The notes under the pieces: generated by a model | What the model saw: only the letters and a program-made list of their open reading frames with translations | Told to the model about the DNA's origin: nothing | Database searches by the model: none | In this document: positions 1,807 to 50,800 of the stretch, one piece after another | Numbering within the stretch: the first letter of the stretch is position 1 | Layout of the letters: the number at the start of each line of letters is the position of its first letter | NCBI GenBank assembly: GCA_030268105.1 | Contig: BSDZ01000005.1 | Coordinates: 558,001 to 622,000 of the forward strand | Source of the DNA: Volvox africanus | Taxonomy: Eukaryota; Chlorophyta; Chlorophyceae; Chlamydomonadales; Volvocaceae | Length of the DNA: 64,000 bases | Direction: 5' to 3' | Program-made: the position numbers and the translations under genes

Positions 1807-2273
1807 ATCCTCACAGACCCATGGTCCTGTAGTGGGAAGCACTGGCGTGGACAACACCAGCTGCTGCGGTTGTGGTGGCGTGGCGGTGGTGGCAACAGAT
1901 ATATTGTATAAAGGGCAAAAGGTTGAGGGGGAGGACTCTTCAGGAGGACCAGCGACTGGCTGAGTGACAGCTGCGGCCGCAGCAATTCGACCAAGTAAGG
2001 GGCTTGTGGCAGCGATGGCAGCAGCAGTGGCAGTAGCCAAGCTAGAACTGTGGTGGCTGGTTGCATTGACGGCTGCGCCAATCTGCCTTCCGTTATGAGC
2101 TACAACAAGTGAGGGGCGTGCGGGATCGGGGGTCTGCCTGGCATGACGATCTCGGTGAGGTTGCATCCCGCATGGTGGTGATCATGGGGGCTTAGCGGCC
2201 TATGTTGACAGAGTGAACAGCCATCAGGCAGTAAGGAGGAAAATACACATGCTGGTCTGTCATAACCGTTGTC
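1807..2273 (-). repeat. Outer inverted repeat, left copy (mate 11404-11870)
   Basis: Reverse complement of 11404-11870 with moderate divergence; for example 2201-2212 pairs with 11461-11472. On the minus strand it holds a long open frame (2166-1738) rich in Ala, Thr and Pro, with segments such as ARPSLVVAHNGR and PVAGPPEESSPSTF that recur in the mate. Indels between the copies in this frame appear to be whole codons. It may be a remnant of a coding linker duplicated with the kinases. No domain is recognised. Confidence 0.8.
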
Positions 2274-2289
2274 ATGGCTATTCATGTGA

Positions 2290-3875
2290 TGTGGTATGAT
2301 GGGAGGTGTAAATGCAACGACTCAAGGTCTACTTTTACATGCGCAATAATCCTGTCAAACATCCTCGATGGGATGTATTCCCTGAACTAAAAGGCATGAC
2401 AATAATAGAACCACGAAATGAACTTTTGCTTAATGAACAGAACAGTGTATCCACTCGTAAACTACGAACACCACAGACGTCTGCTCTAGCATATGGGTGT
2501 ACGAGCCCTGAGACATTGCACGCCATCGCATATGGAGGCAGAAGCATTGCCTACAATTCAACTGAATAAACGCCCATCGGCTCATCGACACATTTGTGAA
2601 CCCCAACTATGAGCTATACCTATACCATACAAGCTACAGTTCACATCGACAGTTCACACCAACCGCGACATAGCAAACAAGGAAGAATGACAAAAGTCCC
2701 AACGGAAGAGAATGGCAAGACACGCATTCCTCGGACAATAATGCCGAGTTGCAGTTGTAGTTGTCGCATAATGTACGGCATACATAATCACCCTTTGCAG
2801 ATAGCACCTCACGACACACACTCGGCACGCATAAAAACCTAAAACCAAAAAACCAAACCCTACGATGCACTAAGACACCTGATGTGTAACTAGTGATGAT
2901 TCGCTCCGGCGGCTATTATCCTCCTGCTGGACGACTACCTGACATGGTGATCTGCCCATACAGAAAGACTAGTGCTCGAGAAGCCGTGAAAGAGATGATG
3001 ATGCGCATGACGTGGGATAAGAAAAACATGATCAGGGGCAAGCTGACAGGGCGCAATAAGAGTGTTGCCAAGGACGTGCCCACCACAGGAAGACTGTAGC
3101 AGTTATATAATCTAAAGTACACATGCAACCAGAGTAGGGATCAGATAGGAAGACAACTCGCATCTGAAGACGACTTTCCAGTGCTCACGGGTGCGGAGTC
3201 GTAAATTCCATATAAACCTACGGTAGCCGTCCGATGCACATACCAGTGCAATATATGCGCCATGAATATCGACCTCGACATGTGTGTCACAAAATATTGA
3301 GCATCGCCTGCGAGAGGTTGCATGCCTCATCCCCACGTCACCGTGAAGACATAGGCCAGCATGCCGATACGTTAATATGCATGCCTGGTCCCAACACGTC
3401 GCGCTTTCTTCAGTTCTTCTTTCCGCTCCTCTCTCTTGATGAATCAGAAATCTTCCGCACGCTCAACCGCCTGCCGCTAAACGCATATGTAATGCTTTAC
3501 TACGCAGTGTTACTTTGTCGGATAGCCCTCCACATGCAGCATCACAATCCTGACATCACCCGTAACGCCGAGCCCCAACCCAGTTCATGAACACTCGAAT
3601 ACATCGGATGATCCATCCGGGTAGAGAAAACCACTAACAAGCAACGACACCATTGGACGAACAAGAAGGTAAACAAAACAAGATTACCACCGCACCCACC
3701 ACCACCATCCGCCCACCTTCCCGACACCAACAAATAAGCCAAGCCTCCTGGATGAAGTGCTCAGCCTCACACGTGGGACGGAGGGCGCAGCCAGCTGGCT
3801 CTCTGTTTCGCACCTTTCCTCGCCGCCCACACTTGCACGTTGACTCCTACCTCTCTGCTATAAGACGGGGGACCC
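2290..3875. other. Intergenic, no gene seen
   Basis: Only short open frames without domain features on either strand. I saw no clear repeat here and no counterpart to this stretch on the right side of the kinase pair (10263-11403), which is also without genes. Confidence 0.5.
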
Positions 3876-5815
3876 CAGCAACCAAGGCGCATTGCCCAGC
3901 GATTCAACTGCCTTAACCCGCCAAGTCGCAGAAGGCCCATTCGCACATACAGCATCGCCGCAGCGGCATCTCACAGACACGATGGCACCATGGCCTGACC
4001 CCCGGGCTTTGCGTCTTGCGCCAGCGTTACATATCAAGCTTCAGGATGTATCAATATCGATGTATATGGAACAATGGCTTTCATGTGAAGTAACAAATAT
4101 TAAGTGGTACGGCTCGGGCCAGAGCCTCGCATCGATACACACACCTCTTCAAACAACGGAATGACGTGCACGTCATGAGGCGGCCCCCGCTGTGTGGGCG
4201 CTATCCTGCTGCCTGCCAATCCTAGCTGGCTGCGCGCTTATATCTTTGCAGGGTTGATCCACAGAGGCTCCTGTACCTTTTTCCCAGGCTCTCCGCACCT
4301 GGAGACGTGCCTTCTGGCCAAACCAGCTGTGCGCACTTAGCGCCCTAGCGAAGGTTGCCGATTCACCGTCCAACACGGGCTTCCTGCAGAAGCTTCTTAA
4401 TCTGGTCGGGCTGCTGGTACTCGGGAGGCACAGGCAGGTTAAGGTAGTACATGTTCATCTCGCGGGCCTGGGGAACGGCGAAGGCATTCGACATTTGGAG
4501 CAGTCGCGAGAAAAAGTCATTGGGCAGGGAGCGAGTAGGCGAGGGTTGCACGGGCGGAGTCCGTGAGGGCGCAAAACGAAAGCAGCAGACTGAATCCAAA
4601 CGTTGGGAAGCGTTGGAGCACGCGTTAAGTTGTATGACCGGTCAAATAAATGTGATCGGTTACACACGCACCTGTGGTGGCAGTTTCTTGTTGAACCATG
4701 GGTGCTCCATGATCTTTTCGATGGTCAAGCGCTGCTCCGGTGCTGGCTTTAGCATGCCACGCAGCATATCAATGCACCCATCCGTCACCTGTGACATGAA
4801 ACCAACCAACCAATCCGCACCCCACACGTAATTGAAACGAGGGAGATAAGTCGTGAATGTGTGCATTTATCACAACAGGTAAGCCTCGCACAACTGAAGA
4901 TCACAAGCCACATAACAAGGTAGCGCCACTCAGTAAGATTCAACACGTTGCACACGTCCTTACTGACGAATGCGTGTGACGACACAAAAGCACCTAGTGC
5001 ACAAAACGAGAGCGGTTCCATCAGCGTGCCGAGCATTCATATGCTCATCCATATGTTCCGCCGCCACCAACAGCATTTACATTACACTCACCGACAAGTT
5101 GGGGTTGAGGACGTACGCCTCCGTCTCCATGCGTTCCAGCATGCGCCGCACCTTCTGTGCCTCGCTGATGCCCTGGTCCTCACCCTGGTTATCAAAAGGG
5201 TATACACTAAAGGACAAAGCGGTAAAACCGGGGTACGGGGGTGCAGGGTAAGGGACAGGGTTGGAGGACGCGTTGGTCGCATATTGGCTTTGCTCAGGGA
5301 GGTGTGAGGCAACACGAGGCTTGAATGTGAGATCATGACCACAGGGATGCGGCTAGAGGGTAGGGAAGGGGCAGTTCACGAGCAAGGAGAGCCTGGGGGC
5401 CCTCGCGGGCTGATGTGAAGGTGGCGGCTAAGTGGTTACAGCGGGAGCACTTTATGACCTGACCTGGAGGGTGTTTGAAGGCGGAAGAGTGGCCTTTCCG
5501 ACTAAGGATGGGGACCAACCTGGCGAGCAGGAGGTTTTCGGAGTGCAGCATGTTCCAAGGGTGGTGGCCAGGCACAGCACCGAACAGCAGAGGGGAAGTG
5601 CGCAATGTCCCACATGTGAGCGTGTGGGATGCATTGAAGCAGGAGGCGCCAATCACTATCGCTACTCTTGACATGAGTGGTCCCTCTGGGGTCCCAAACT
5701 GACACCACGCACCCGTACAGCATGACGTACAGCACGACACCGCAGCTCCACACGTCGGCCACCTTGGCATCGTAGTATTTGCCACAACTCTTCATGACCT
5801 CCGGAGCCATGTAGC
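3876..5815. repeat. Left arm of recent inverted repeat (mate 8325-10262)
   Basis: This arm is the reverse complement of 8325-10262. Paired coordinates sum to 14138 over most of the length and to 14140 past a 2-nt indel in the large kinase intron. I saw only about a dozen differences over 1.94 kb, most of them in introns. The arm runs from the middle of kinase exon 2, through all downstream exons and introns, past the stop codon and past the TGTAA poly(A) signal. It ends abruptly about 150 bp beyond that signal. Introns and UTR are as similar as exons, so the identity reflects recent duplication or gene conversion rather than selection on protein. Confidence 0.93.
4027..4031 (-). promoter_or_regulatory. 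Candidate poly(A) signal TGTAA, left SnRK2 gene
   Basis: Minus-strand TGTAA, the mirror image of 10107-10111, inside the duplicated arm and 332 nt after the stop codon of the left kinase. Confidence 0.5.
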
Positions 5816-6314
5816 CCACGGTGCCGACCTTGCTCTTTGATGCCGTCGACTTGGAGACGTCCTTACTGTAACCGAAGTCGCAAAGCTTCAAAATCGGGTG
5901 TTCGGAGCCTTCCATAATGTGCAGCGTCATATTCGCAAGCTTGATGTCGCGATGTGCAAAGCCACGCTGGCGGCAGTAATCGACGGCCAAGATGAGTTGT
6001 TGGGAAAACCACCTTGCCATGCTTTCCTTAAGACGACCCTGTTTTCCCACCCACTCGCATAAGTTGCCTCCGTTCGCGTACTCCATCACGATACACTGAC
6101 TGTTGCCAAAAGGGATGACCTCACGAAACTGCACGATGTGTGGGTGCCGAAGGAGGCGATGAATCGAAGTTTCGCGTTCCACGAGCATCTCGTCACTCTT
6201 CGGGCCCGGAATCTTCATCGCAAGGTGTTCATTCGTCTCGGTGTTCAAAACCTTTCGTACAGTCCCAGAGGTGCCCCTACCCAGCGTTCCTACAATCTGT
6301 AAGAAGATGGACAT
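4363..6314 (-). CDS. SnRK2-like Ser/Thr protein kinase (left member of inverted pair)
   Basis: Plant/algal SnRK2-family kinase, which phosphorylates Ser/Thr and in the family acts in stress and nutrient signalling. Exons read on the minus strand: 6314-5713, 5206-5092, 4788-4668 and 4589-4363; together they give an open frame of about 354 aa, normal for SnRK2. Visible motifs: Gly loop GRGTSGTV, catalytic Lys in LAMKI, Glu in VERE, catalytic loop AHRDIKLAN, DFG in LCDFGYSK, MAPEV, KVADVWSCGVVLYVML, and a C-terminal lobe ending HPWFNKKLPPQ. The short tail contains PDQIKKLLQEA, like the SnRK2 tail helix. The start is uncertain: ATG 6314 lies in a stretch (TCCATCTTCTTACAG) that also looks like a 3' splice site, and in the sister gene the matching site is an acceptor after a 12-codon first exon. 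I could not find that first exon here. The last intron needs a shifted donor (after 4668) to stay in frame. From about 5815 to beyond the stop the gene is nearly identical to its sister. Confidence 0.85.
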
Positions 6315-7740
6315 AGCAGAAGGGGTGCCTTATTATGGATACTTGAGGATAATTATTTACCGAAATATAAGAACGATTGACGTAGTAAGCCAAAAGGTAG
6401 TAACGCTCGCACCTAGAAGTTGCCCATCATTAGAGGTGTGGTAGCCATTGCATTTAATCTATTATCCATAGTAGTCAGGTAAATCTCACACATATAAGTA
6501 TATATTGAGCTAACCGCAGATAGGTCGGAGCCCTAGCTCATGAAGGCAATGAAGGTTAACCAGAGGCACAGCACTCGAAGTGTCTCTTAGACGTTACTAC
6601 AGTTTCAACATTGAGTAGATTGTGAAGGAAGAGATTGTATGCTGTTCTCTCACAACGCTATTACCTGTCGCTGTCCACACGTACTGCAGCTACTCGATTA
6701 GATTTAATTCAAGTTAATATATGTTAGGATTCAGTTGATTAGTGCGTTCAGACTCGCATCCTGGATCCGAGACCAAGTGACCTTAGTGTACGGAATTTAG
6801 GAGCCAATGGCGGTCTACCAAATTTGCTGTCTTTAGCCTTGTAATGAATACGTGGTGTAGATCCACTTATTTCTTTATAGTTATATTTCCATAATTATAT
6901 TGGTCTTCGGCCTCGGTCGCGCAAACGACAGGCAATGTCGGTCGATACGCCTAACGAGAAGCTTAAGTCTGCGCACATTTTACCTATGCACGGGATGTAA
7001 AACTGTCTCTAAATATGTTACAGGCCACACGCCCCACGGCCCCAGCATCTCCTGCTGCTGCTTTAGCGGCGTTCTTCTGGCGTCCGCCGCGCTGGGCGCA
7101 GCACTCACAGCCAATCCAAACCCCCATGCGGCCGTGTAAGAGCGGAGAAATCGGCTGAGAAACAAGCTAATAATCATATACCTTCCAGTTTCATTGTCGC
7201 ATTCTATAGCCTATCACTAAATGCCTACAGACTTTCACAGACTATGTACTGATGGCTCATAGAAAAATGATCCTAGCAATAAATCGTCACTATCAATAAC
7301 AACGAGAGATTCAGTAAATGATTCGGCATTGGCAAAAAAATTGTCCATATTGTATGATCGACGACACCATCCATCCAGCAGCAAAGTTAAACTTTGGTAA
7401 CTCTTTCTTTGTGTTAAGGTTCAATGCTTTGCTGTATCCGCACATCCAGAGGGTCAGTCTTCAATGGGCGTGAGGGACTAACGGCCACTCCAGGGTGGGG
7501 CATAGCGCGGTCGAGAACCACCAGGATGGCTTACAGTTGACTTCCGCAAGTAGCATAGGTCATATGGGCAACTTCCTTACAATATAGATGTGCTGACCTT
7601 GTAAGGAGTAGTCTGCGCGCTGTGCATCTGGCTGACCCTCAAACGCTACTCTGGCGTTTGGAAGGTGACCGTCTGACCCGCCCGCGAATAAGTTCGATCT
7701 AATAAGGATTGCCGCGAATTTGCTAAAACATTGATCCACA
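6315..7740. other. Divergent intergenic spacer between the two kinases
   Basis: AT-richer sequence between the two kinase starts, with no open frame worth calling and no obvious symmetry between its halves. Both genes are transcribed outward from it, so their promoters should lie here, possibly shared. I could not identify specific elements. Confidence 0.5.
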
Positions 7741-9775
7741 ATGGATGGCGGACCTACGATGCTGCGCAATTTCCAGGTAAGCGTTTGGTATTCCCGAGAA
7801 CCTATTTAAGCCACCTAAGCCTTCTGCAATGTCCATCTACTTACAGATAGTGAATTCGCTGGGTAGCGGCAGCTTCGGGACCGTGCGCCTGGTGAAAGAT
7901 ATCAACTCGGATAAACACCTTGCGATGAAGATTCTGAACCGACGGGATGCCAGCAAATATGTTGAAGACGAAATTGTGAACCATAGCCTCCTTCGGCACC
8001 CACACATCGTGCATTTTCGTGAGGTATTCATTCACGACGACTTTCTATGTATCGTCATGGAGTTCGCGAACGGAGGCAGTTTATTCAACTTGGTACGGGT
8101 GCAGCGTCGCTTGAAGGAGAGCATGGCAAGGTGGTTTTTCCAACAACTCATCTTGGCCGTCGATTACTGCCACAAGCGCGGGGTTGCAAATCGCGACATC
8201 AAGCTTGAGAACCTGTTATTGCACACTGAGGACGGCTTGCCGCATCCGCTCCTGAAGATGTGCGACTTCGGTTACAGTAAGGCCGACTTCCGGTCGGCTG
8301 CCAAGAGCCAGGTCGGCACTGTAAGCTACATGGCTCCGGAGGTCATGAAGAGTTGTGGCAAATACTACGATGCCAAGGTGGCCGACGTGTGGAGCTGCGG
8401 TGTCGTGCTGTACGTCATGCTGTACGGGTGCGTGGTGTCAGTTTGGGACCCCAGAGGGACCACTCATGTCAAGAGTAGCGATAGTGATTGGCGCCTCCTG
8501 CTTTAATGCATCCCACACGCTCACATGTGGGACATTGCGCACTTCCTCTGTGCTTTCGGTGCTGTACCTGGCCACACCCTTGGAACATGCTGCACTCCTA
8601 AAACCTCCTGCTCGCCAGGTTGGTCCCCATCCTTAGTCGGAAAGGCCACTCTTCCGCCCTCAAACACCCTCCAGGTCAGGTCATAAAGTGCTCCCGCTGT
8701 AACCACTTAGCCGCCACCTTCACATCAGCCCGCGAGGGCCCCCAGGCTCTCCTTGCTCGTGAACTGCCCCTTCCCTACCCTCTAGCCGCATCCCTGTGGT
8801 CATGATCTCACATTCAAGCCTCGTGTTGCCTCACACCTCCCTGAGCAAAGCCAATATGCGACCAACGCGTCTTCCAACCCTGTCCCTTACCCTGCACCCC
8901 CGTACCCCGGTTTTACGGCTTTGTCCTTTAGTGTATACCCTTTTGATAACCAGGGTGAGGACCAGGGCATCAGCGAGGCACAGAAGGTGCGGCGCATGCT
9001 GGAACGCATGGAGACGGAGGCGTACGTCCTCAACCCCAACTTGTCGGTGAGTGTAATGTAAATGCTGTTGGTGGCGGCGGAACATATGGATGAGCATATG
9101 AATGCTCGGCACGCTGATGGAACCGCTCTCGTTTTGTGCACTAGGTGCTTTTGTGTCGTCACACGCATTCGTCAGTAAGGACGTGTGCAACGTGTTGAAT
9201 CTTACTGAGTGGCGCTACCTTGTTATGTGGCTTGTGATCTTCAGTTGTGCGAGGCTTACCTGTTGTGATAAATGCACACATTCACGACTTATCTCCCTCG
9301 TTTCAATTACGTGTGGGGTGCGGATTGGTTGGTTGGTTTCATGTCACAGGTGACGGATGGGTGCATTGATATGCTGCGTGGCATGCTAAAGCCAGCACCG
9401 GAGCAGCGCTTGACCATCGAAAAGATCATGGAGCACCCATGGTTCAACAAGAAACTGCCACCACAGGTGCGTGTGTAACCGATCACATTTATTTGACCGG
9501 TCATACAACTTAACGCGTGCTCCAACGCTTCCCAACGTTTGGATTCAGTCTGCTGCTTTCGTTTTGCGCCCTCACGGACTCCGCCCGTGCAACCCTCGCC
9601 TACTCGCTCCCTGCCCAATGACTTTTTCTCGCGACTGCTCCAAATGTCGAATGCCTTCGCCGTTCCCCAGGCCCGCGAGATGAACATGTACTACCTTAAC
9701 CTGCCTGTGCCTCCCGAGTACCAGCAGCCCGACCAGATTAAGAAGCTTCTGCAGGAAGCCCGTGTTGGACGGTGA
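7741..9775 (+). CDS. SnRK2-like Ser/Thr protein kinase (right member of inverted pair)
   Basis: Sister of the minus-strand kinase, head to head with it across about 1.4 kb. Exons: 7741-7776 (MDGGPTMLRNFQ), 7847-8427, 8932-9046, 9350-9470 and 9549-9775; they sum to 1080 nt, giving 359 aa. Joining exons 1 and 2 gives FQIVNSLGSGSFGTV, the expected start of an SnRK2 domain, which is why I prefer ATG 7741 to the internal ATG 7829. Motifs: Gly loop GSGSFGTV, Lys in LAMKI, Glu in VEDE, CDFGYSK, MAPEV, VADVWSCGV, VYPFDNQGEDQG and HPWFNKKLPPQ. The catalytic loop reads ANRDIKLEN, so the His of HRD is Asn while the catalytic Asp, Lys and Asn remain. It is probably active, but the His change is unusual. 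From 8325 onward, introns and 3' UTR match the left gene at about 99%; before that the two proteins differ widely. The donor at 9470 is chosen by phase and is less certain. Confidence 0.87.
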
Positions 9776-10262
9776 ATCGGCAACCTTCGATAGGGCGCTA
9801 AGTGCGCACAGCTGGTTTGGCCAGAAGGCACGTCTCCAGGTGCGGAGAGCCTGGGAAAAAGGTACAGGAGCCTCTGTGGATCAACCCTGCAAAGATATAA
9901 GCGCGCAGCCAGCTAGGATTGGCAGGCAGCAGGATAGCGCCCACACAGCGGGGGCCGCCTCATGACGTGCACGTCATTCCGTTGTTTGAAGAGGTGTGTG
10001 TATCGATGCGAGGCTCTGGCCCGAGCCGTACCACTTAATATTTGTTACTTCACATGAAAGCCATTGTTCCATATACATCGATATTGATACATCCTGAAGC
10101 TTGATATGTAACGCTGGCGCAAGACGCAAAGCCCGGGGATCAGGCCATGGTGCCATCGTGTCTGTGAGATGCCGCTGCGGCGATGCTGTATGTGCGAATG
10201 GGCCTTCTGCGACTTGGCGGGTTAAGGCAGTTGAATCGCTGGGCAATGCGCCTTTGTTGCTG
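8325..10262. repeat. Right arm of recent inverted repeat (mate 3876-5815)
   Basis: Mirror copy of 3876-5815, separated from it by about 2.5 kb. Similarity starts inside exon 2 of the right kinase, at the codons before YMAPEV. It stops near 10262, where the two flanks become unrelated. Confidence 0.93.
10107..10111 (+). promoter_or_regulatory. Candidate poly(A) signal TGTAA, right SnRK2 gene
   Basis: TGTAA lies 332 nt after the stop codon, a usual distance for green-algal 3' UTRs. The exact mirror, TTACA at 4027-4031, serves the left gene. The motif is short, so its position relative to the stop is the only support. Confidence 0.5.
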
Positions 10263-11403
10263 TATGGGACAGGTGTCGGTTTTAGCCGTTCTGTGATGAC
10301 ATTCGATAAGGTTGGTGGTAGGGGTTGTATTATTTAGGTTGAATGGCGTCATCTGGACCGATTTTCCTGCAACGCGTGTGGACCGTCCCGTATGCGAGTG
10401 CTTATGGGTTCGATTGGCACTTCAGAATGTGAGAGGTTAGGCTATGGTAAAGCGCAGCACGTGGAGCGTGTCCGACATGGAAGACACACAGCATGGCGAA
10501 GAGATAGCATATGCATCGAGCCGCAGACGGTCGAGCTGCGAGCATGAGGGCTGATTCTTTAGAGAGGAACCAAATTGAATGAAATGAATCTTGATGTCTT
10601 AACACTTGGTCTTCCTTCTAGTGTCCTATCCATGTGTTGTTGGCCTGTGTCATGGTGATGTGGTGGTGAGCGATGTCTGTTAATCATCCCACACACAACC
10701 TCTCGCAGGGGATATAGGGAATCCCCAAATAGGCTGTGATGAAAATATTACGAGGCACATATCTGTGGAGCCTGGTATGCTGTACGTTTACAGTGGGTGA
10801 TCGTCGTGGATTATTGAGCGACTGCAATCGGAAAGACGCGTTTCGCCCTCCCATTTAATCGGCCCTTGTGATTCTGCCATATTGATAACTTGCCGTTGCG
10901 GCGAATCGGCAGATGTAAACCTTAACTCATATGATGCTGTCTTCCTTGATGACGGCCAATGAAGCAATGGACACATGGAGTCAGTTGAGTTGGGAGGCAA
11001 TGCCTATGCCTGCACATCAGCTCAAAGGGGTTGGATCGGGGCGCACCCACCCATGCGCAAGAGCTCACCATTGCCGTATTCGTAGTTCACGCTTTTCTGT
11101 AAAAGGAGTTTCCTTATGTGGTCTACTTACCATCCTGATGCATATCCTGGTAAAGTATGGTGCCTGTTGAGTAACTTGCTTCAATTTCGACAATTCTAGA
11201 TGGCCGCATCCAGTCGAGGGTTACTGCACATGTAAACGAGATCCATAGTCAACGAAGCAATCGGCAGCGACCCTTCCTCTTACACATCCCATCGCACCAC
11301 ACCACACCACATGCACGGCGGAAATTTTTGCAAGTCGAAACGAGGTTGGAAGTATTCCAAAAAGCTGTCTTTAATATCTTTCAACTGCACCGAAGTTAAG
11401 CTA

Positions 11404-11870
11404 CAACGGTTAGGACAAATCATGTGTATTTTCCTGCTTACTGCCTGATGGCTGTTCACTCTGTCAACATAGGCCGCTAAGCCCCCATCATCACCACCAT
11501 GCGGGATGCAACCTCACCGAGATCGTCATGCCAGGCAGAGCCCCCGATCCCGCACGCCCCTCGCTTGTTGTAGCTCATAACGGAAGGTGGATTGGAGCAG
11601 CCGTCAATGCAACCATCCACCACAGTTCTAGCTTGGCTACTGCCACTGCTGCTGCCATCGCCACTGCCACAAGCCCCTTACTTGGTCGAATTGCTGCAGC
11701 CGCAGCTGTCACTCAGCCAGTCGCTGGTCCTCCTGAAGAGTCCTCCCCCTCAACCTTTCACTCTTTATACACGATAACACCTGTCGCCATTACCGCCACG
11801 CCACCACAACCGCAGCACCCGGTATTGTCCACGCCAGTGCTTCCCACTGTATGACCATGGGTCTGTAGTG
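11404..11870 (+). repeat. Outer inverted repeat, right copy (mate 1807-2273)
   Basis: Mirror copy of 1807-2273. It carries the matching open frame on the plus strand (from 11528), which here ends earlier (LSTPVLPTV then stop). The copies are clearly less alike than the inner arms, so they are either older or escaped later homogenisation. Confidence 0.8.
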
Positions 11871-18500: not shown

Positions 18501-21500
18501 AGAAAACGTGCATCTTCGCGGCTCTGACGCCGATGTTGCGGCCACCCCTCTCTGCTGCAACTGAGCTCCTGCACCTCGTAGTTTTGTATGATCTTACTCG
18601 CGACAACAGCACTATTCAGGTCCCGAAGGATAAGGTACAGTGGCGCACCAACCTTCTCGTGCTTTGTTTGGGCGGGTATGAGTGTGTGAGCCTGAGTCCT
18701 GTGGACCATGCATGCTTGCAGGGCCGTGCGTGTGTCAAAGTAATGAACTTACATTCTCAGTGTCTCGTGATCCAACAAACGATGCTGCTGTTGCTACGCC
18801 CTACTTGGCAATATGTTGCTCATGGTAGCTATTTGATGCAGTTGCCATGGCTTCTTGGGGATTGGATCACATGATGTCGTCTCGATACATACTATCGGCT
18901 TGTGCGGCGCTGCTGTGGTGCCTTGCATTTCTGTTAGAGCAGATGCCTTAACTCATACCAGGATCCGACGCAGCAATCTTCACAACAGTCACGTTCTTGG
19001 AGCGTTGCCATCAGAATATTTTATGTTACCATTTGCTTTTTGCCCCGTAGATCGTATTTGACGACGCCTTCTTTGCGAATTCCAGCACAAGTGGTATACT
19101 ATCAACCGGAAAGCATCTGGTCGTATACCGGACAGCCCACCACCCAGCGTAAGCGTGGCGGCTTGTGCCTCTTGTCGTAGAGAGCTAGCGGATCCAGATG
19201 CTGCGGTCCTTCGGTCCAATCGATCATTGCCATGACCTGCCGTGTCCCGCATCTCTTTGTTCGTTAGTCCATCTTCCGATGAAGTCGGTAAAGCTTGCGC
19301 TCTTTCTGTCCTGCGGGAATGTGCATTCATGTCTTGGCGGGCTTGCTCCATGCAGCTGCGCTTGGTGTCAATATGGTGTCAATATGGAGATGATGCGCGT
19401 CGTTTTGACACATTGATATCGCCCTTGAATAGCCCCTAAGACGCTTGAGTACTAGAAGTGCGTTTTCCGCCTTCTCATGTGTTTTCCGGAAATTTCTTGC
19501 CTCAAAAGCTTTCCAGGGTCGGCCATGGGGCAGTAATTATATTTGTATTTAAGCTTGCCCTGCACCTTGCTGTGTATGTGTGCTCGACAACCCACAGGCC
19601 AACGTGGCTAGGAGCTCAGGCCTTCCCGCGCCAGGTCCCAGGGCCCGTGCCGGATACTGAGGCACCTTCAGCGATTAAGGAGCCCATTCATTACTGGCAC
19701 CGAAGGGAACCTGGTGGTTCAGAGCAAGGTGCCTTGCTTCCTTCCTGGGTGATTGTGCAAGTGCTGCAATACACGCCACTGGCGGGCCCGAATGCACCGT
19801 CCACAGGAATGTCCGGCTCCGTCATGAAATGGCTTACCATGCCCCTGTTGGTTCCGATGCGCAAGGAGCACGTGACGGGCGGTCCTGAGGCGGAGGCTGT
19901 GATTGGCGCGGCGGTTATGCTGGCGCTGCAGGTGGAGTTATCTCGCCCAAATCAATGTGTCCCGTAATTGCATGGCTTTTCAGAGCCAGCACTGCATTAC
20001 TTTTACACCTCGTTAACATCAGGTGTTCTTTATGTGCCAATATTCCAGGACAGATATTGCCTGAAAGCATGGGGTTAGTTGTGTGTGGGATAGGGGGTAC
20101 ATCACCCGTGGCCACTAACCTGGCAGTCCCTACCTTCCCCGGTATTTCGGGGCACCCTGATCCGGTCTCCCATGCCGACTTCTCCGAAATCAGTGCTTTT
20201 CCCGGGTTCAGCACCCACCACCGGCATCCAGCGGAATCTGCCGAATCAACTAAGGCGTCAACTCCGCTCCTGGTCAGCTCGCAGGTCACTATAATCGGGT
20301 CCGTCATCGTCCATCGACATGGGGGCACCCTGCCCTCAACTTTGGGTCTTTGGCCCACTCTCGGCTGGGGTAGAACCTGGAACTCCAGGGGCATGTAAAT
20401 CGTGCCATAACAGTCGTGCCTGAACACGAATGAGTTAATTGTATGACTTTGGGTTATAGGCATATGGGGGTCTCAGTCTCTCCTATATCCAGCTGACAAG
20501 AGTACTTTCCGCCGCGTGCCCACCCGCAGCCCTACCGCACGCAAGCGACTCTGCCGATCTCCTGCTTGGCGCCCATCATGGTGTTGCGCCACAATAGGTT
20601 GCACTTGCAAGAAGCCCCATCTCGCACGAGCAATATGTGCCTGGGTGTCAAGGCTGGCGACATCCACGCATTTCCGGGACCCGGCTACCTCCAACAGGTG
20701 TCGGCGATCATGGCGCATGTAGGTCAAAGCCCTGAGCGTGAATGGTCCAAGTAGGCCTGGGCGGTGCTGATGGAAGTCGGCAGCCTTTGACATTTGGGAA
20801 CGCAACGTCCCCCATAGAGCTCCTTTTGGGGGGAAAAGGGATGCACGTGGGAGGCCCAGTTGCCCGCTCGCTGCTTGCGGGAACGGTTTGGGGTTTTTAA
20901 GCAAATGTAGGGCAGCAACTTGAATCGTTTTCGCCTCGAAAACTCCATATATAAAACAACCTATATGGAGTACATCGAGATGCTGTACTCCATATAGGTT
21001 GCCAACCTCCCAACCTCGTTTAAACCGCGAAAAACACTCGTCGAAACGCAGCAGGAGTGACGGACGAACACAGCAGCGCGTGTGTGCGGCGGCTGCGGGT
21101 TAGAAATTCGACAACAAAACTAAGGCAATGTCTATGCATGTTGCGCTGTCGTAACGCATAACATGATGACAATTTCCCAGTCATAACCGTTCCAGTCTGC
21201 CAGGAACACGCCGCAGTGTGCGACGTGTGGTGGTGGGGACCCAGCCATGTGTGCAACCCCTATGCGGCACTCTGTTGGCAATGTTTGAATGAGTCACAAA
21301 GCCCCATGGTATTACTCGGTATTGCCCACACAGGTCTGTGCGCTCGTTGGACGTCAATACGTTTTAGATCCCTATCTGTGTGCCTCATGTGTGCACAGGA
21401 TATGCCCCACGACGCCTACAAGCTGCGTGAGATGTTCTCGCCATCGGTCGACGTCAGTGCCTCGCCGGAAGCCATGCACGGTGAGTACATACTCCAGGCA

Positions 21501-32765: not shown

Positions 32766-34648
32766 TGGTATCAAAATAAACCTGCAACTGAACATCCTCA
32801 AATAGCAGAAACTCAAGCCTCAATTATAGCTGCAAAGTACTTGCTGCACGGAAAGTACAACATCAAAAGTGCGAACTTTACACCATGCGAGAAACAAGGT
32901 TGTGTGGCTCGGCAGATGGAAATTATTAAAATAGTCTGAAAGGTGTTGAACTGCAGGCCAATTCCTAATTTGCCGTAATGTACAGCAACGCCGAAATTCA
33001 CGAACATCGATTCTCGACGGATTGGGTTTGAAAGCAAGCGGCATATTATTAGATCCATTTATTTTTTATATAGCGATAGACTTGAGTGAGAACCAAATGC
33101 GTTTATTACGGACAGCAAGCAGCCAGGAGTCAAGGTGTGTCGGCTTAAGCAGTGGATACCCAATGGGATCACCTTCATCACATGGTTAAAAAGTTTCCCT
33201 TTGCGTGTCATGTCACCCTTATACATTCTACGCTATGTGTAGCGGACTTGGCTATCCCAGGGGAGCAACTACGCGAAGACTAGTCAGCAACCTTGATTTA
33301 CCTGTTGCGGCATATGACCGCTATGTGGAAGACGAAGAACATACGCCTAGTTAGTGAATACGTTAGTGAATTCCTGTGCTGGCTTAAATGTGCCAAAGGC
33401 CTTGATTAATTTTATTGTCGTGGTTACGCTGCCCTAAGGCAGGGTGGCACACAGATATTTATCCTGATTCCGCAACTAATTATTCATTGGTTTCGGCCTC
33501 ATGGTATTGCAGAAACAAGCGACTTAGGATTCCTAGTGGAACTTTTTGGGGAAGGTAAATGAGACCGGATTTAATACAGAATCTTTCAAAATTGATGTGC
33601 GGGATAGATTCTGCCCGAAACCATAGCCTGCAGAGACAGGCCTAATGGCTGTGTGCGTGTGGCTCTTTGTGTAACAGCCCATCTTTGTGTATGTGTGTGC
33701 ACAGGTCATAATTTGATGAGTATTATGATGACATTTGTAATAATATGCACTTGGTTCGTTGTATGTGTTGATATGATGTCTGTTTCATATCTGACATTTT
33801 CAAGAATGGTTACGCTGGCCGCAGCCTGGCGTGTATTATAGGGAACCCAGGGGCTACCTTTAGGGCTACCTTTTACACCATTGGACATGCATGCGTACAC
33901 CATTGTTGGGGCCGCTAGGGTTCACTGGGTTGTTTGATTTCGAAGATTCCCGCTGCGGCCCCTATCCATGTGCCAGCCCCGATTGGATCACTTACTCGCC
34001 TTTAGGTGAGCTTCTAAGCCACCCCGCACCTCATAGCACCCCTTAGGCATGGGTTTGCACTTAACCGCTGATGAGACCTGCCAGTGAGGGCGGACAGGGA
34101 CACGACTGAAGAGCCGTGCTATCCCTGCTGCTCACACACTCACTGGGGCGCCCGCAGATGTTTTATCACACGGTTCTCGTCAAGAAAGAAGCCGTTGGCA
34201 TTCCGGAAAGAACTTGCAACCACTGAAAGGAATCATGGCGCCCTAACTCTCAAGGCCATCTTAGGATGTAAGACTTTTATGATAGGAGCTCCATAGAATG
34301 GGTGCACATTGGACACGATGCAGATCAAAGAGGCTTAGAGAGAATTTCTTAAGACAAAGTTCACAGGGACACGTTATAAGCACGCACGGGTGCCTCGGCG
34401 AATCGGCGGTTACTGAACAAGGCTTACATTGAAGGCATTATACTTGATTTGTACCTGTTGGCTTACCTGATGGTCACTTCACGAACCCATAGCGCTGCTC
34501 TTGCTTGGGGCGATGTAAATAAGGCAGACTTTCAATGTCACCACCTGTAGTTGGTATAGTTCCCTACCAAGTCTTCAACCCCGCGTGTGATAGGCAATGG
34601 GCACTGAGCGCCCTGACGACATTTAAGTGTGGTCGTCAATTCATTACT

Positions 34649-34895
34649 GTGTGTGGGATAGGGGGGTACAGCTTCACCCGTGGCCACTAACCTGGCAGTC
34701 CCTACCTTCCCCGGTATTTCGGGGCACCCTCATTCGGTCTTCCATGCCGAGTTCTCCGAATTCAGTGCTCTTCCCGGGTTGAGCACCCACCACCGGCATC
34801 CAGCAGAATCTGCCGAATCAACTAAGGCGTCAACTCCGCTCCTGGTCAGCTCGCAGGTCACTATAATCGGGTCCTTCACCGTCCATCGACATGGG
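34649..34895 (+). repeat. Dispersed ~245-bp repeat, copy 2
   Basis: Second copy of the element at 20081-20325, here intergenic and upstream of the TKL kinase gene. Similarity stops sharply on both sides. I saw no terminal repeats or target-site duplication that I trust. Confidence 0.85.
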
Positions 34896-35019
34896 GCCCC
34901 CATGCCCCCATGTCAATTCAGGTATGACCAGCCAGTTGAAGGCAGCTTTGGTACTGAAGCTGTCATATTCTGGGACGTTGCTGTGGAGCTCTCGGCATGC
35001 CTTGTTTCATTCGTGTGTG

Positions 35020-44800: not shown

Positions 44801-47800
44801 CGTGAGATTTAGAATAAATTGTTTTAGTTTAACAACGCTAATACGATAATAAATCCTGTAGAGTCCTCATTAGCCATCATTATCATCCTAAATATGATTG
44901 TGTCAACAGATCCCTCACAAGACAGAACAAAGGATCCTTAAGAACGTTTTTTAAACGTTAATAAAACCCCCTCATCCACCCCGACTGACGCACCGCCTCA
45001 ACCGCCAGATGTACGGCTACTTCACGGACTGTGTCGTAGTGCAGTACGCCAACATACCGAACCGCCTTAAGCTGCTACCGGTGGACAACGAGGCGCTGCA
45101 GCAATACGGCGGTCAACGGGGCCCGGTGAATACGGTCATGTGCATGGAGTTTTGTGATGGTGGGTGGGCATAGGCAGGTATGGCGGGAGAGGCGGGGGAC
45201 GGATGTGCGCTGACGACTGCGGGGTGAGGTGCCAGTTGGGTGGGCACCGTAAGGCGGAGAGCCGACGGGCCTTCTGACAAGGGGTTCTAGAAAGCAGGAA
45301 GGGGGTTGCTGGTGTCTTGGATTAGATATGGAGGAACTCTGTAACCGCCATGCCTTGGTTTTGGGGGTTCGTGTCGCATCGCTTGTCGTATCGCTTGTCG
45401 GATTGTTACAGACTGAAGGTGGGGACCGGGTTTTAAGACGTCCATGTCCAAACTTGTGGTCAGGTCACGCGGATCCTACTTTGTTCCTGGTTTTCCCGAT
45501 TTTGCAAAAATTGCCATCTTCGGTTGATGTTTTCTCAGCGGGGACGCTCAAGTCGGTGGCTGAGGGCGGGGCCTTCCGGCTTCCGGGCGTCAGCGCCAAG
45601 AGCGGCCCCGCCTGCCCTGCACTGGCGCCCCTGTACACCAGCCTGCTGGAGGTGGCACTGGCACTGAGACACCTGCATGGGAGAAGACTCGTGCACTGCG
45701 GTGAGGGAAAAAAACGAGGAATAATCCTTATTATTAATTGTTCTTATGTTATTCTTATCTTGTTTATATTCTTATTTTGTTCGTATCTTATTTATGAGAG
45801 TTATTATTGATTATTTTTCATAAGGTTCATGAAGCGTTTTCAATGGTTTTTATTCATCGATTACGTGCCGTGGGTTCGGAATTGCGAATTTCGTTTCGGG
45901 GCGTATGATCTTCAGTGCCATCTTTACCACTTCCCCATGTCTTCTTCTGTCTTTGAGCACAACCTTATTTGTTGCCTTAACGTCTTAGCTGCTATCATTT
46001 TTAGCTTTAGCGTTCATTCATTAGCTTGCACTCTTGACTCCTAGGGCCGGGTCTGACCATGTCCGTTGTTCTCCCCTCTCCCCTCTCCCCTCTCCCCTCT
46101 CCCCTCTCCCCTCTCCCCTCTCCCCTCTCCCCTCTCCCCTCTCCCCTCTCCCCTCTCCCCTCTCCCCTCTCCCCTCTCCCCTCTCCCCTCTCCCCTCTCC
46201 CCTCTCCCCTCTCCCCTCTCCCCTCTCCCCTCTCCCCTCTCCCCTCTCCCCTCTCCCCTCTCCCCTCTCCCCTCTCCCCTCTCCCCTCTCCCCTCTCCCC
46301 TCTCCCCTCTCCCCTCTCCCCTCTCCCCTCTCCCCTCTCCCCTCTCCCCTCTCCCCTCTCCCCTCTCCCCTCTCCCCTCTCCCCTCTCCCCTCTCCCCTC
46401 TCCCCTCTCCCCTCTCCCCTCTCCCCTCTCCCCTCTCCCCTCTCCCCTCTCCCCTCTCCCCTCTCCCCTCTCCCCTCTCCCCTCTCCCCTCTCCCCTCTC
46501 CCCTCTCCCCTCTCCCCTCTCCCCTCTCCCCTCTCCCCTCTCCCCTCTCCCCTCTCCCCTCTCCCCTCTCCCCTCTCCCCTCTCCCCTCTCCCCTCTCCC
46601 CTCTCCCCTCTCCCCTCTCCCCTCTCCCCTCTCCCCTCTCCCCTCTCCCCTCTCCCCTCTCCCCTCTCCCCTCTCCCCTCTCCCCTCTCCCCTCTCCCCT
46701 CTCCCCTACTCCCCTCTCCCCTACTCCCCTCTCCCCTACTCCCCTCTCCCCTCTCTCCCCTACTCCCCTCTCCCCTACTCCCCTTTCCCCTACTCCCTCT
46801 CCCCCCCCCAGACCTCAAGCCCTCCAACATCCTCCTGAAGAGCTCGCTTAGGGATCCTCGTGGCTGGATCTGCAAGGTGGGTGATGATGAGCCCCTGCGC
46901 CACCAGCGCCAACGGCATTTCCTCTTTTTTTCTGGGTTTTACGCTAATCCCGAAAACCCTTACGTCTCCAAAATGTCCCCTGCCCTCGGGTGGAGGCTCC
47001 CCCGATTCCATAATCCAATAAGTCCCACGCGAAAAATAACACCCCACGTTTCGGGCAGGGAGTTAAGTCATGTTGCAGGGGGCCGAAAATGGGGGCCAAA
47101 TAGGGGGACCAAAAAAAGGGGCCAAAAGGGGGGTTCCAGAGCGCTTTGGTTGTTCTATGATTCGTCATCCATGTAGACGTCATGTCCGTTACCTGCCTGT
47201 CTTGTTTGTATGTCATGTACAGCTGAGCGACTTTGGCTGCGTGCGGGTGATGAACGAGGAGGGCGAGGACGGCCGGTTGGGATTCCGGCAGCCACAGCCG
47301 CTAGGGTAAGCAGTGCGGCTACATGGGGTCGGGTCGTCAGGCAGGCAGGCGTACTGCGGGTGGTAGTCGGGCAATAGTACTTCTAGGCTTTCACAGCCCT
47401 GAAGGTCATAAGACTTCTGTAGGCCGCTGCCCCTGTAATGCCAAGAGGCACACCCCTTCCGCCGCCGCACGGATTTCCCGCTTTCTGATACTGTGGCTGA
47501 AGTCTGAACCGATATACCGCCGCCTCTCTCCCGCGAGGATCCCACCCTCCGACCAGCTCCCTCCACGGACAGCTGCCTGCGTTAACTCGCCTTTCTCGCT
47601 GCTCATCGCTGGCTGCTTCCGATTTAGCCGTGCAAAGTTACCTCAGTCTGTCTCCCATACATCCACCCAAATTTTTGTTTTCTATTTTATTATATTGATG
47701 TGTTCCGGATGAATCTACCCTGCCCTACCCTGCCCTACCCTGCCCTTCCCTGATCTACCCTGCCCTACCCTGCCCTACCCTGATCTACCCTGCCCTACCC

Positions 47801-50800
47801 TGCCCTACCCTGATCTACCCTGCCCTACCCTGCCCTACCCTGCCCTACCCTGCCCGACCCTGCCCGACCCTGCCCGACCCTGCCCGACCCTGCCCTACCC
47901 TGCCTGCCCTGCCCTACCCTACCCCCGACTCAATCCTGCGCACTCGCTGCTGCGCCAATCGCTACGGACCCAACCCACCCGACTCATAACCGGCTTGACC
48001 CGACTGGACCCCTACGATCCCTACGGACTGGACCCCTACGATCCCTACGGACTGGACCCCTACGATCCCTACGGACTGGACCCCTACGATCCCTACGGAC
48101 TGGACCCCTACGATCCCTACGGACTGGACCCCTACGACCCCTACGGACTGGACCCCTACGATCCCTACGGACTGGACCCCTACGATCCCTACGGACTGGA
48201 CCCCTACGATCCCTACGGACTGGACCCCTACGACCCCTACGGACTGGACCCCTACGATCCCTACGGACTGGACCCCTACGATCCCTACGGACTGGACCCC
48301 TACGATCCCTACGGACTGGACCCTTACGACCACAGGACTCTCACCCACATGGCACCGGTGAGTTCCTGACTCGCTCTTTCCAGCGGCCAGAAGGAATTCT
48401 ATTGTCGGTTGTAATCTTGGACGGTTAGATTTTGCCTGCTAACTTGCCTTTTTATTGCCTCCTATTGTATACTTTTACCTCTCGTTATCATCCATTAACC
48501 AACTGATGGCTTAATCGTAAGAAATATTGCTGTTTGGCCCCACGTGGGGTTTTGACTTAAGGACGGGAGTCCCTCCTACTTTCCCCCGGCTTCCTGGAGC
48601 CTGTCTAAGAGCTGTTCGGAAATAGTTTTTGGCTCACCGCAGTGAGTTAAAGAAATCGGTACATTTGTGACAAAAGAAGAGGTAATGTTTATGCAGCTTT
48701 GGGTTTTAACAGAATTCTACGTCATGTTGCTTTCTAACGAAGGGGTTCGATAAGCTGAGCTTTCGGCGGTCGTCAGAAGACATTGAGTTTACATGCCTCA
48801 CCACCGACTGCAACAGGACCCTGACGGGAGGGGATGAACCCTGGGGCTCCCAGGCTGGCACGGGTTCGATAAGCTAGCACGGGTTCGATAAGAAGAGGTA
48901 ATGTTTATGCAGCTTTGGGTTTTAACAGAATTCTACGTCATGTTGCTTTCTAACGAAGGGGTTCGATAAGCTGAGCTTTCGGCGGTCGTCAGAAGACATT
49001 GAGTTTACATGCCTCACCACCGACTGCAACAGGACCCTGACGGGAGGGGATGAACCCTGGGGCTCCCAGGCTGGCACGGGTCCGTTCGATGGCTTCAAGC
49101 CGCACACATGCGACACGACGTGATGCTGATGCTGATGCTGTGCTGTGCTGTGCTGTGCTGTCCTGCAGGAGATGTTCGTGCGCGGCGGGCTGCTGGACGC
49201 GGGGATAGAGTAAGTGGGTCGGGCAGTGGCTGGGTGGGTAGGTGAAGCAACAACCCACGCATTGCGTAATACGTATCGGCCGGGAATATAGCATTCGTTT
49301 GTCTGTACGTATAACGCGCACATTGGCACAACACCATGTCAAATGTCTCCTCGTCATCCTGTTTGTCTATTATGGGAAGTGGAATCTGTAAGCACCCGTT
49401 TCTGTTTGCAACTGCTAACTCCCAGCTATCGATCGGCCCAACCAAACCATTAAGACTCACAAGGTCACAATCGCAACTGCCCTATACGGCATACAGTATC
49501 TACGCGTTTGGCATCATCATGTGGGAGCTCATTATGGTCGCACCCGTGTACGACGGTACGGTGCCCAAGGAGAAGCTACCGGTGCGTTCCCCATCCTGTT
49601 CGTTGATTTAAAATGCGATATCCCGTAACTTTGTCTCTTGGACACCTTGATTTCAGATCTCGTCATCTGCTTTTGTCTGCTTTTGAGCAGATGTGTGTTG
49701 ACATAGGCGTTCATGTCTCTTAGCGACGACTAAATGCGCTACCAGCCAGTATAATACAGTGTGGTGCTACATATCCCCTGTGTCTGACACTGACTGGTCG
49801 TTACGCGTCTGCTGCTCCCGCCGCAGCCTCCAGCACAGATACATCTCAAACAAAGCCCTTCGATTTACGTCATTCGGTCTCTCACACACAACCCCTGGAT
49901 CCCCTTCCCCGGTGTTGTGTATGTGTCCCCCCTTGCCCCTCGCAGTCAATGGTTCGGCGCGGGTTGCGCCCCATTTTCCATCCACTCGTACCACCAGAAT
50001 ACAGGTATATACACGTATATGTATATATACATATTTACTTAAATTGCGGCGCTCCAATACTCTATTATTCGATGCAAGTACCAAATGGTGTGTTATATCT
50101 CTGTGTTAATATCCGCCAAATTGCATAGGCCCGGTTTTAAGATGTCCAGTTTCCTGATCATCCTGGATAGTAGCCTTAGAAACCCCAGGATACTACAGGG
50201 TGTGAGACGTGTAATGAGTGAGAGTGAGATGCTATTGTAGCTTCTAAGAAGAAATAAACAGAAATTAATCAAAGTGTTGAGATGTTACATAAAGATGATC
50301 GAGTTAGAAACTGTAAGATGAAGTGACCTGTTGTATCTCTGTTGTGTCGGCCAACAAAGGCCCGATCGGAAGGATGACCATCTGAGGTCCAGGATCCTTT
50401 GAGACTGTCCGTAGATACCCCAGGATACTACAAGTATTCCCCTCAGATAGGGTGCATTCTCGCATCAGGGGCCTGAAACCTCCCTAAGCTGTAATCAGAC
50501 GAATTCGATCGTTGGGTTCCAGTCCATGACCCAGTCTGACACGCCCTCACCATCCCATAGGGTGGGAGTTTTGAACCTGGACACACATGCTAGGTCTGAA
50601 TGTTATAGTTCTGTTGTGGTAGCCTACATAGGCTCAATCGGAAGTATAATCATCTGTGGTACAGCTCTTAAGACTAGATACCCCAGGTTAGTACATGACC
50701 AGGCATTGTGGTGAGAACCCCCTGGATATTAGAAAGACTCCGAGCTTTTGAGGGTAACCCCCGAAGTGAGGAGACATTGAACATGTACAGAAGTCGTTTC

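Follow-up and report, generated by a model that had tools for sequence, protein, structure and literature searches.

The back half of a SnRK2-like kinase gene in the volvocine alga Volvox africanus has very probably been overwritten with sequence from its inverted neighbor. The explanation that we favor is an old inverted duplication, followed by recombinational copying of about 1.93 kb of one gene, R, over the other, L. Alignments and trees show a sharp step in L/R divergence, a discordant ancestry of the two parts of L, and a direction of copying from R to L. The genes lie in a window of 64,000 bp, bases 558,001-622,000 of contig C5 (BSDZ01000005.1), to which all positions below are relative. 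According to the available parts of the genome report (PMC10291315), strain 1101-NZ-11 originates from Thailand, and 197x PacBio data (20- and 30-kb libraries) were assembled with Canu and polished with Pilon using 166x Illumina data, giving a genome of 141.0 Mb in 129 contigs; gene models were predicted with the help of a transcriptome, and the sex-determining-like region sits on contig0022. C5 is presumably a different contig, which would place L and R outside the sex-determining-like one. As a sequence-only reading of this DNA had proposed, the two SnRK2-like genes face away from each other, with L on the minus strand and R on the plus strand; exons 2-5 of L match exons 2-5 of R on the opposite strand, and transcription is divergent. 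The principal features are as follows.

4363..6296, minus strand: body of gene L, VaNZ11_002131 (exons 6296-5713, 5206-5092, 4788-4672, 4467-4363), modeled by homology to R
7741..9775, plus strand: gene R, the putative donor (exons 7741-7776, 7847-8427, 8932-9046, 9350-9466, 9671-9775)
3876..5815, minus strand: L arm, the putative converted tract, differing from R by 11 mismatches and two one-base gaps over 1,933 columns
8325..10262, plus strand: R arm, the putative source tract, from base-by-base alignment
5816..6296, minus strand: unconverted first part of L exon 2, diverged from R and of the L-type clade (alignment and tree)
7847..8324, plus strand: first part of R exon 2, counterpart of the unconverted part of L (alignment and tree)

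Self-comparison of the window returned an inverted match between 3876-6323 and 10262-7820. When the two arms were aligned base by base, the divergence between them proved to be stepwise, not gradual. The best single breakpoint lies in the middle of exon 2, at 5815/8325, as the sequence-only reading had placed it, with 131/481 differing columns before and 13/1,933 after (2 x delta lnL 372). Exon 2 is 73% identical between L and R up to 5816/8324, the position of the final mismatch before the step, and the longest identical run reaches 872 columns, whereas the maximum across 2,000 permutations was 231. The identity of about 99% that had been claimed for the tract, introns included, holds across coding sequence (0 differences in 440 bp), intron 3 (0/303), intron 4 (0/204), the 3' part (3/480) and intron 2 (8 mismatches and 2 gaps in 506). 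The outer edge falls at about 3883-3876 / 10255-10262, and TGTAA, which we take to be the volvocine poly(A) signal, is found at 10107 (plus) and 4031 (minus), so that the tract ends roughly 150 bp past the signal, as had been described. Synonymous sites follow the same step, with about 39 differences in 104 sites before it and none in 93 after it (92.7 sites; Fisher p 3e-13). By a scripted NG86 method applied pairwise to L and R, the first part of exon 2 (159 codons) has a dS of 0.525 and a dN of 0.282, and mismatches in the N-terminal part are spread evenly over codon positions (42/41/45). At nine informative tract differences L has G/C where R has A/T in eight (p 0.039), but these differences are unpolarised and biased repair is therefore not claimed.

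The diverged part of exon 2 includes segments that are presumably the glycine loop (GSGSFG in R, GRGTSG in L), the hinge (MEFANGG and MEYANGG) and the catalytic loop (NRDIKLEN and HRDIKLAN), all of which differ, as the sequence-only reading had noted. Because the tract edge falls just 5' of the codons for the APE motif, the glycine loop, hinge, catalytic loop, DFG and activation loop all lie in the diverged part. The earlier description of distinct N-lobes joined to one shared C-lobe therefore went too far: what is shared begins only at the APE motif, and everything from the hinge through the activation loop has diverged. Short identical runs of 28 and 32 bp also occur within the N part, the longest with a permutation P of 0.002; they could be additional minor tracts or a sign of constraint. 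A spacer of about 2.5 kb separates the near-identical arms; by geometry the inverted arms could form a hairpin, and as both genes read outward, L and R mRNAs would carry the shared tract in the same sense.

A search of the genome against itself, covering 126 contigs, found the tract at L and R only, plus one 119-bp match (73%) on contig C43. Separately, similar kinase matches occur 10 times on C76 and 7 times on C7, mostly about 11.7 kb apart. C76 at about 1,003-1,125 kb together with C7 (116,225 bp) is a probable tandem array with an 11,745-bp unit. Two adjacent C76 copies show 100% identity across the 8,156 bp that were aligned, and C7 contains a 9,991-bp stretch with 99.7-99.9% identity to the array. 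Within the window itself there are also a cluster of short tandem repeats (46070-46804, 47713-48331 and 48674-49081) with an exact 192-bp direct repeat, and a direct repeat of 260 bp at 93% identity (20080-20335 / 34648-34907).

Gene R encodes a product of 317 aa in five exons, and its exon-2 frame matches the Pfam Pkinase domain (E 6.7e-52). Its best match among solved structures is the plant kinase SAPK10 (E 1.6e-68, residues 10-315), with SRK2E second, and we therefore call it SnRK2-like. Plant SnRK2 kinases have a long C-terminal tail, and the canonical HRD catalytic loop is a defining kinase feature. R departs from the plant SnRK2 proteins in both respects, as it carries NRD in place of HRD and stops at 317 residues without the long tail; given the NRD, the name goes no further than SnRK2-like. 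In a 16-row alignment, NRD is found in 10 rows, HRD in 4 (L, P0006, P0031 and P0019) and NHD in 2. Compared with the SnRK2 / CKIN2 kinases of green algae, as far as the available parts of PMC6344539 describe them, L retains HRD yet has DIKLAN. Among the matches listed (the best 120 of 939 and the best 120 of 3,397 in the protein searches), R matches Vretimale_10959 (V. reticuliferus) at 96% identity over 99% and XP_001699403.1 (Chlamydomonas reinhardtii) at 85% over 97%. Agreement is even along the protein: 166/172 residues in the N part and 138/145 in the C part are identical to V. reticuliferus, and 141/165 and 122/145 to Chlamydomonas. By these comparisons R is orthologous over its full length to the V. 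reticuliferus and Chlamydomonas proteins, and it appears to be an ordinary kinase gene.

The two parts of L have different relatives. Trees were built from 23 rows, comprising L, R and 21 sequences picked by hand from 176 proteins; V. reticuliferus and a second V. africanus assembly, whose Vafri_ proteins are taken to come from a Japanese strain, were compared via their proteins. In the N-part tree, L groups with Vafri_11744 and Vafri_6574 (support 100/99) and a grouping of L with R is rejected (AU p 0.0008), placing the N part of L in a fast-evolving Volvox clade. In the C part, the L protein is identical to R; the C-part tree still allows L with Vafri_11744 and Vafri_6574 (AU p 0.295), and L + R + V. 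reticuliferus is not its best topology (p 0.101). L and R differ at 65 N-part sites. V. reticuliferus shares the R state at 61 of them and the L state at 2, and matches neither at the remaining 2; the corresponding counts are 49, 2 and 14 for Chlamydomonas and 39, 5 and 21 for P0005. R is congruent in both parts, and thus R is uniform and L is the mosaic. Since the relatives side with R at the differing N-part sites and L is mosaic, copying from R to L is indicated. The step, the loss of synonymous divergence and the discordant ancestry of the two parts of L thus sustain the proposal, already made from the sequence, of a recent intrachromosomal gene conversion between older paralogs.

Whether L still encodes a full kinase is less clear than for R. 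Its exon-2 frame matches Pfam Pkinase (E 8.3e-49), and P0004, the protein deposited for L, shows 100% identity over 90% of the query. The deposited protein starts MKIPGPK, at the first methionine past the exon-1/2 junction and after the glycine loop, as expected if the transcript is spliced at a junction that bears a stop. Such a stop is seen upstream.

6413..6448, minus strand: L exon-1 homologue, reading MATTPLMMGNF followed at the splice donor by a stop codon (a sense codon in R)

This homologue shares 24/36 bases with R exon 1, a similarity visible only when the alignment is anchored at the donor, and has further in-frame ATGs at 6469 and 6493. The L product is thus probably N-terminally truncated, without a glycine loop, in strain 1101-NZ-11. 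However, an ATG in frame with L exon 2 lies at 6314, inside the predicted intron 1, and a start there could yield a complete L kinase domain. The last 27 bases of intron 1 (6297-6323 / 7820-7846), which include this ATG, are identical between L and R at 25/27 positions, a closer match than in the first part of exon 2 (p 0.012). This similarity could mean that the splice site is constrained, that the start codon is genuine or that a very small patch was converted, and it counts against a truncated L. L exon 2 contains no stop and only one in-frame 3-base indel relative to R. Simulated neutral decay with 60, 90 or 110 substitutions gives 1.49, 2.11 or 2.47 expected stops, but 21%, 12% or 8% of runs remain stop-free, and the open frame is therefore weak evidence of selection, hinting at past constraint. 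Of the two kinases that had been predicted from the sequence, L may therefore not be a full one.

Inverted symmetry continues beyond the 3876-10262 span, where two further pairs of homologous segments were found.

3409..3540, minus strand: decayed remnant, L side, with 97/141 columns identical to the R side
10454..10588, plus strand: decayed remnant, R side, in local alignment with 3409-3540
1813..2272, minus strand: L-side outer island, matching 11403-11866 at about 93% identity
11403..11866, plus strand: outer island, R side, with no coding signal

The remnants align with a local score of 47; 500 shuffles reached no more than 36, 128 real-sequence controls no more than 29 and a same-strand control 25. 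Remnants and outer islands keep matching order on both sides, so homology is present on either side of the tract, in exon 2 inside and in the remnants and islands outside. The first ~190-340 bp outside 3876/10262 contain no alignable L/R sequence. Farther out than 1812/11867 no homology was detected (local score 30, with 60 shuffles reaching 35), nor was there any between the halves of the central spacer at 6320-7800 (6320-7060 against 7061-7800; score 26, with 60 shuffles reaching 28). The outer island, of which the own-genome search found just two copies, was considered as coding sequence and rejected: its mismatches fall 8/9/9 by codon phase, it contains a 1-bp gap, and 0/371 candidate proteins scored in one database search. 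Lacking coding signs, it may therefore be read as an older conversion tract. As judged from these alignments, the duplication is larger (~10 kb) and older than the 3876-10262 span implies.

These observations can be accommodated in the following sequence of events. An old inverted duplication, head to head and spanning about 10 kb, would have given rise to the conserved R and a fast-evolving paralog, L. A break in L would later have been repaired from the nearby inverted R template, with copying running outward from exon 2, just before the APE codons, and ending about 150 bp beyond the poly(A) signal. Repair of this kind would explain the step, the direction and the mixed divergence. The main rival is a one-ended template switch, by break-induced replication or a microhomology-mediated route, in which a fresh inverted copy of the R 3' half replaced that of L. 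Its product and direction would equal those of gene conversion, with only the repair route differing, and it would account for an outer edge where the arms cease to align and an inner edge within the homologous exon 2. Yet homology resumes at 3409-3540/10454-10588 and again at 1813-2272/11403-11866 with order kept, which indicates that homology existed on both sides of the tract, and the uneven divergence inside the tract fits repeated ordinary conversion. We therefore regard the template switch as unlikely, though as the alternative most deserving of attention.

Two other explanations are far less probable. The near-identity of the arms could in principle be an artefact, with one arm copied onto the other during assembly or both averaged by short-read correction, as short reads are ambiguous there and Pilon was used, according to the available text of PMC10291315. 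But the arms differ in their flanks and cores, 11 mismatches persist, reads from 20-30 kb libraries at the 197x coverage given there should span the ~6.4 kb structure, and polishing would not be expected to make divergence drop from 27% to 0% between one base and the next; we consider an artefact very improbable. Least credible of all is a history with no conversion, in which a single recent duplication was followed by fast evolution of the L 5' half alone, under selection or in a local mutation hotspot. The first part of L does evolve fast, with mismatches even over codon positions, but such a history would have to accommodate synonymous divergence that falls from 0.525 to 0 at one base within an exon, and a first part of L that shares its ancestry with other Volvox proteins.

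Gene conversion at this locus need not have been a single event. Of the 11 mismatches in the tract, 8 fall within the 506 bp of intron 2, as do both gaps; the remaining 1,425 bp contain 3 (p 0.0016), and intron 2 also stands out from the other noncoding parts of the tract (p 0.0096). This clustering means that the L/R transfer is not necessarily single, and from the two tiers of divergence within the tract (1.6% in intron 2 and 0.2% elsewhere), an age argument that rests on n=11 mismatches, together with the older outer island and the Vafri_11744 pattern described next, we infer that conversion happened more than once.

Vafri_11744 shows a weaker version of the L pattern. Compared at the protein level only, it shares 87/172 residues with R in the N part and 120/145 in the C part, and its exon 3 is like R at 33/38 positions and like Vafri_6574 at 8/38. 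This suggests an independent or earlier conversion, and thus that the process may recur, but the evidence is mixed. The C-part placement of Vafri_11744 has support of only 64/75. R and V. reticuliferus can be told apart at 9 C-part columns, among which Vafri_11744 matches R in 3 (two of them an adjacent N-L), V. reticuliferus in 3 and neither protein in 3. Moreover, Vafri_6574 is also nearer to R in the C part (94/145, against 87/168 in the N part), so constraint may explain part of the Vafri_11744 pattern. Vretifemale_12596 of V. reticuliferus matches R about equally well in the N part (86/134) and the C part (96/145), which is what one would expect of an unconverted paralog. The locus tags of Vafri_11744 and Vafri_11818 are 74 apart, as are those of Vretimale_10959 and Vretimale_10885, each pair presumably on a common contig, and this spacing hints at synteny. 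An exon-by-exon search gave, among the matches listed, no near-identical counterpart in this genome for Vafri_11744, Vafri_6574, Vafri_11818 or Vretifemale_12596; the best match of all four by E-value is L or R, at 57-68% identity among the matches listed, and some short pieces elsewhere in the genome reach similar or higher identity. This lack of near-identical listed matches, noted for the R relatives P0006, P0031, P0047 and P0019 of another V. africanus assembly and of V. reticuliferus, suggests rapid turnover of these kinase paralogs.

Interlocus gene conversion occurs between duplicates, inverted ones included. At L and R it is indicated by an abrupt change in divergence that includes synonymous and intronic sites, by a receiver whose parts have different closest relatives, and by flanking homology. 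As far as the available parts of the published accounts go, the pair resembles the Caenorhabditis and Drosophila paralogs and the sex-chromosome palindromes (PMC3966223, PMC3924832, PMC7023750) in joining close paralogs through a sharp-edged homogenised tract, with introns included, diverged flanks and old remnant homology outside. It differs from them in that just one pair of kinase genes is involved, in a volvocine alga and presumably not on the sex-determining-like contig, and in that transfer ran one way, from a conserved gene to a fast-evolving gene that may have lost its start. The L/R pair is thus a clean new case of a well-known process, with unusually clear edges; it is named in no title or abstract opening among those listed for gene conversion in Volvox or V. 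africanus. A speculative extension, to which we attach little weight, is that recurrent one-way conversion from R keeps the APE-to-tail region of fast-evolving L-type proteins, with a putative docking surface, R-like while their fronts diversify or decay, so that the products would be truncated or altered decoys competing with R for partners.

The pair provides a clear, polarised gene conversion in a volvocine genome. Two islands of unequal divergence lie on a single old inverted duplication, which allows the length and direction of the tract to be read off directly. The front and back halves of L have different histories, and whole-protein comparison consequently misplaces it. Should the Vafri_11744 pattern prove to be a second event, the frequency with which conversion recurs within this species could be measured here.
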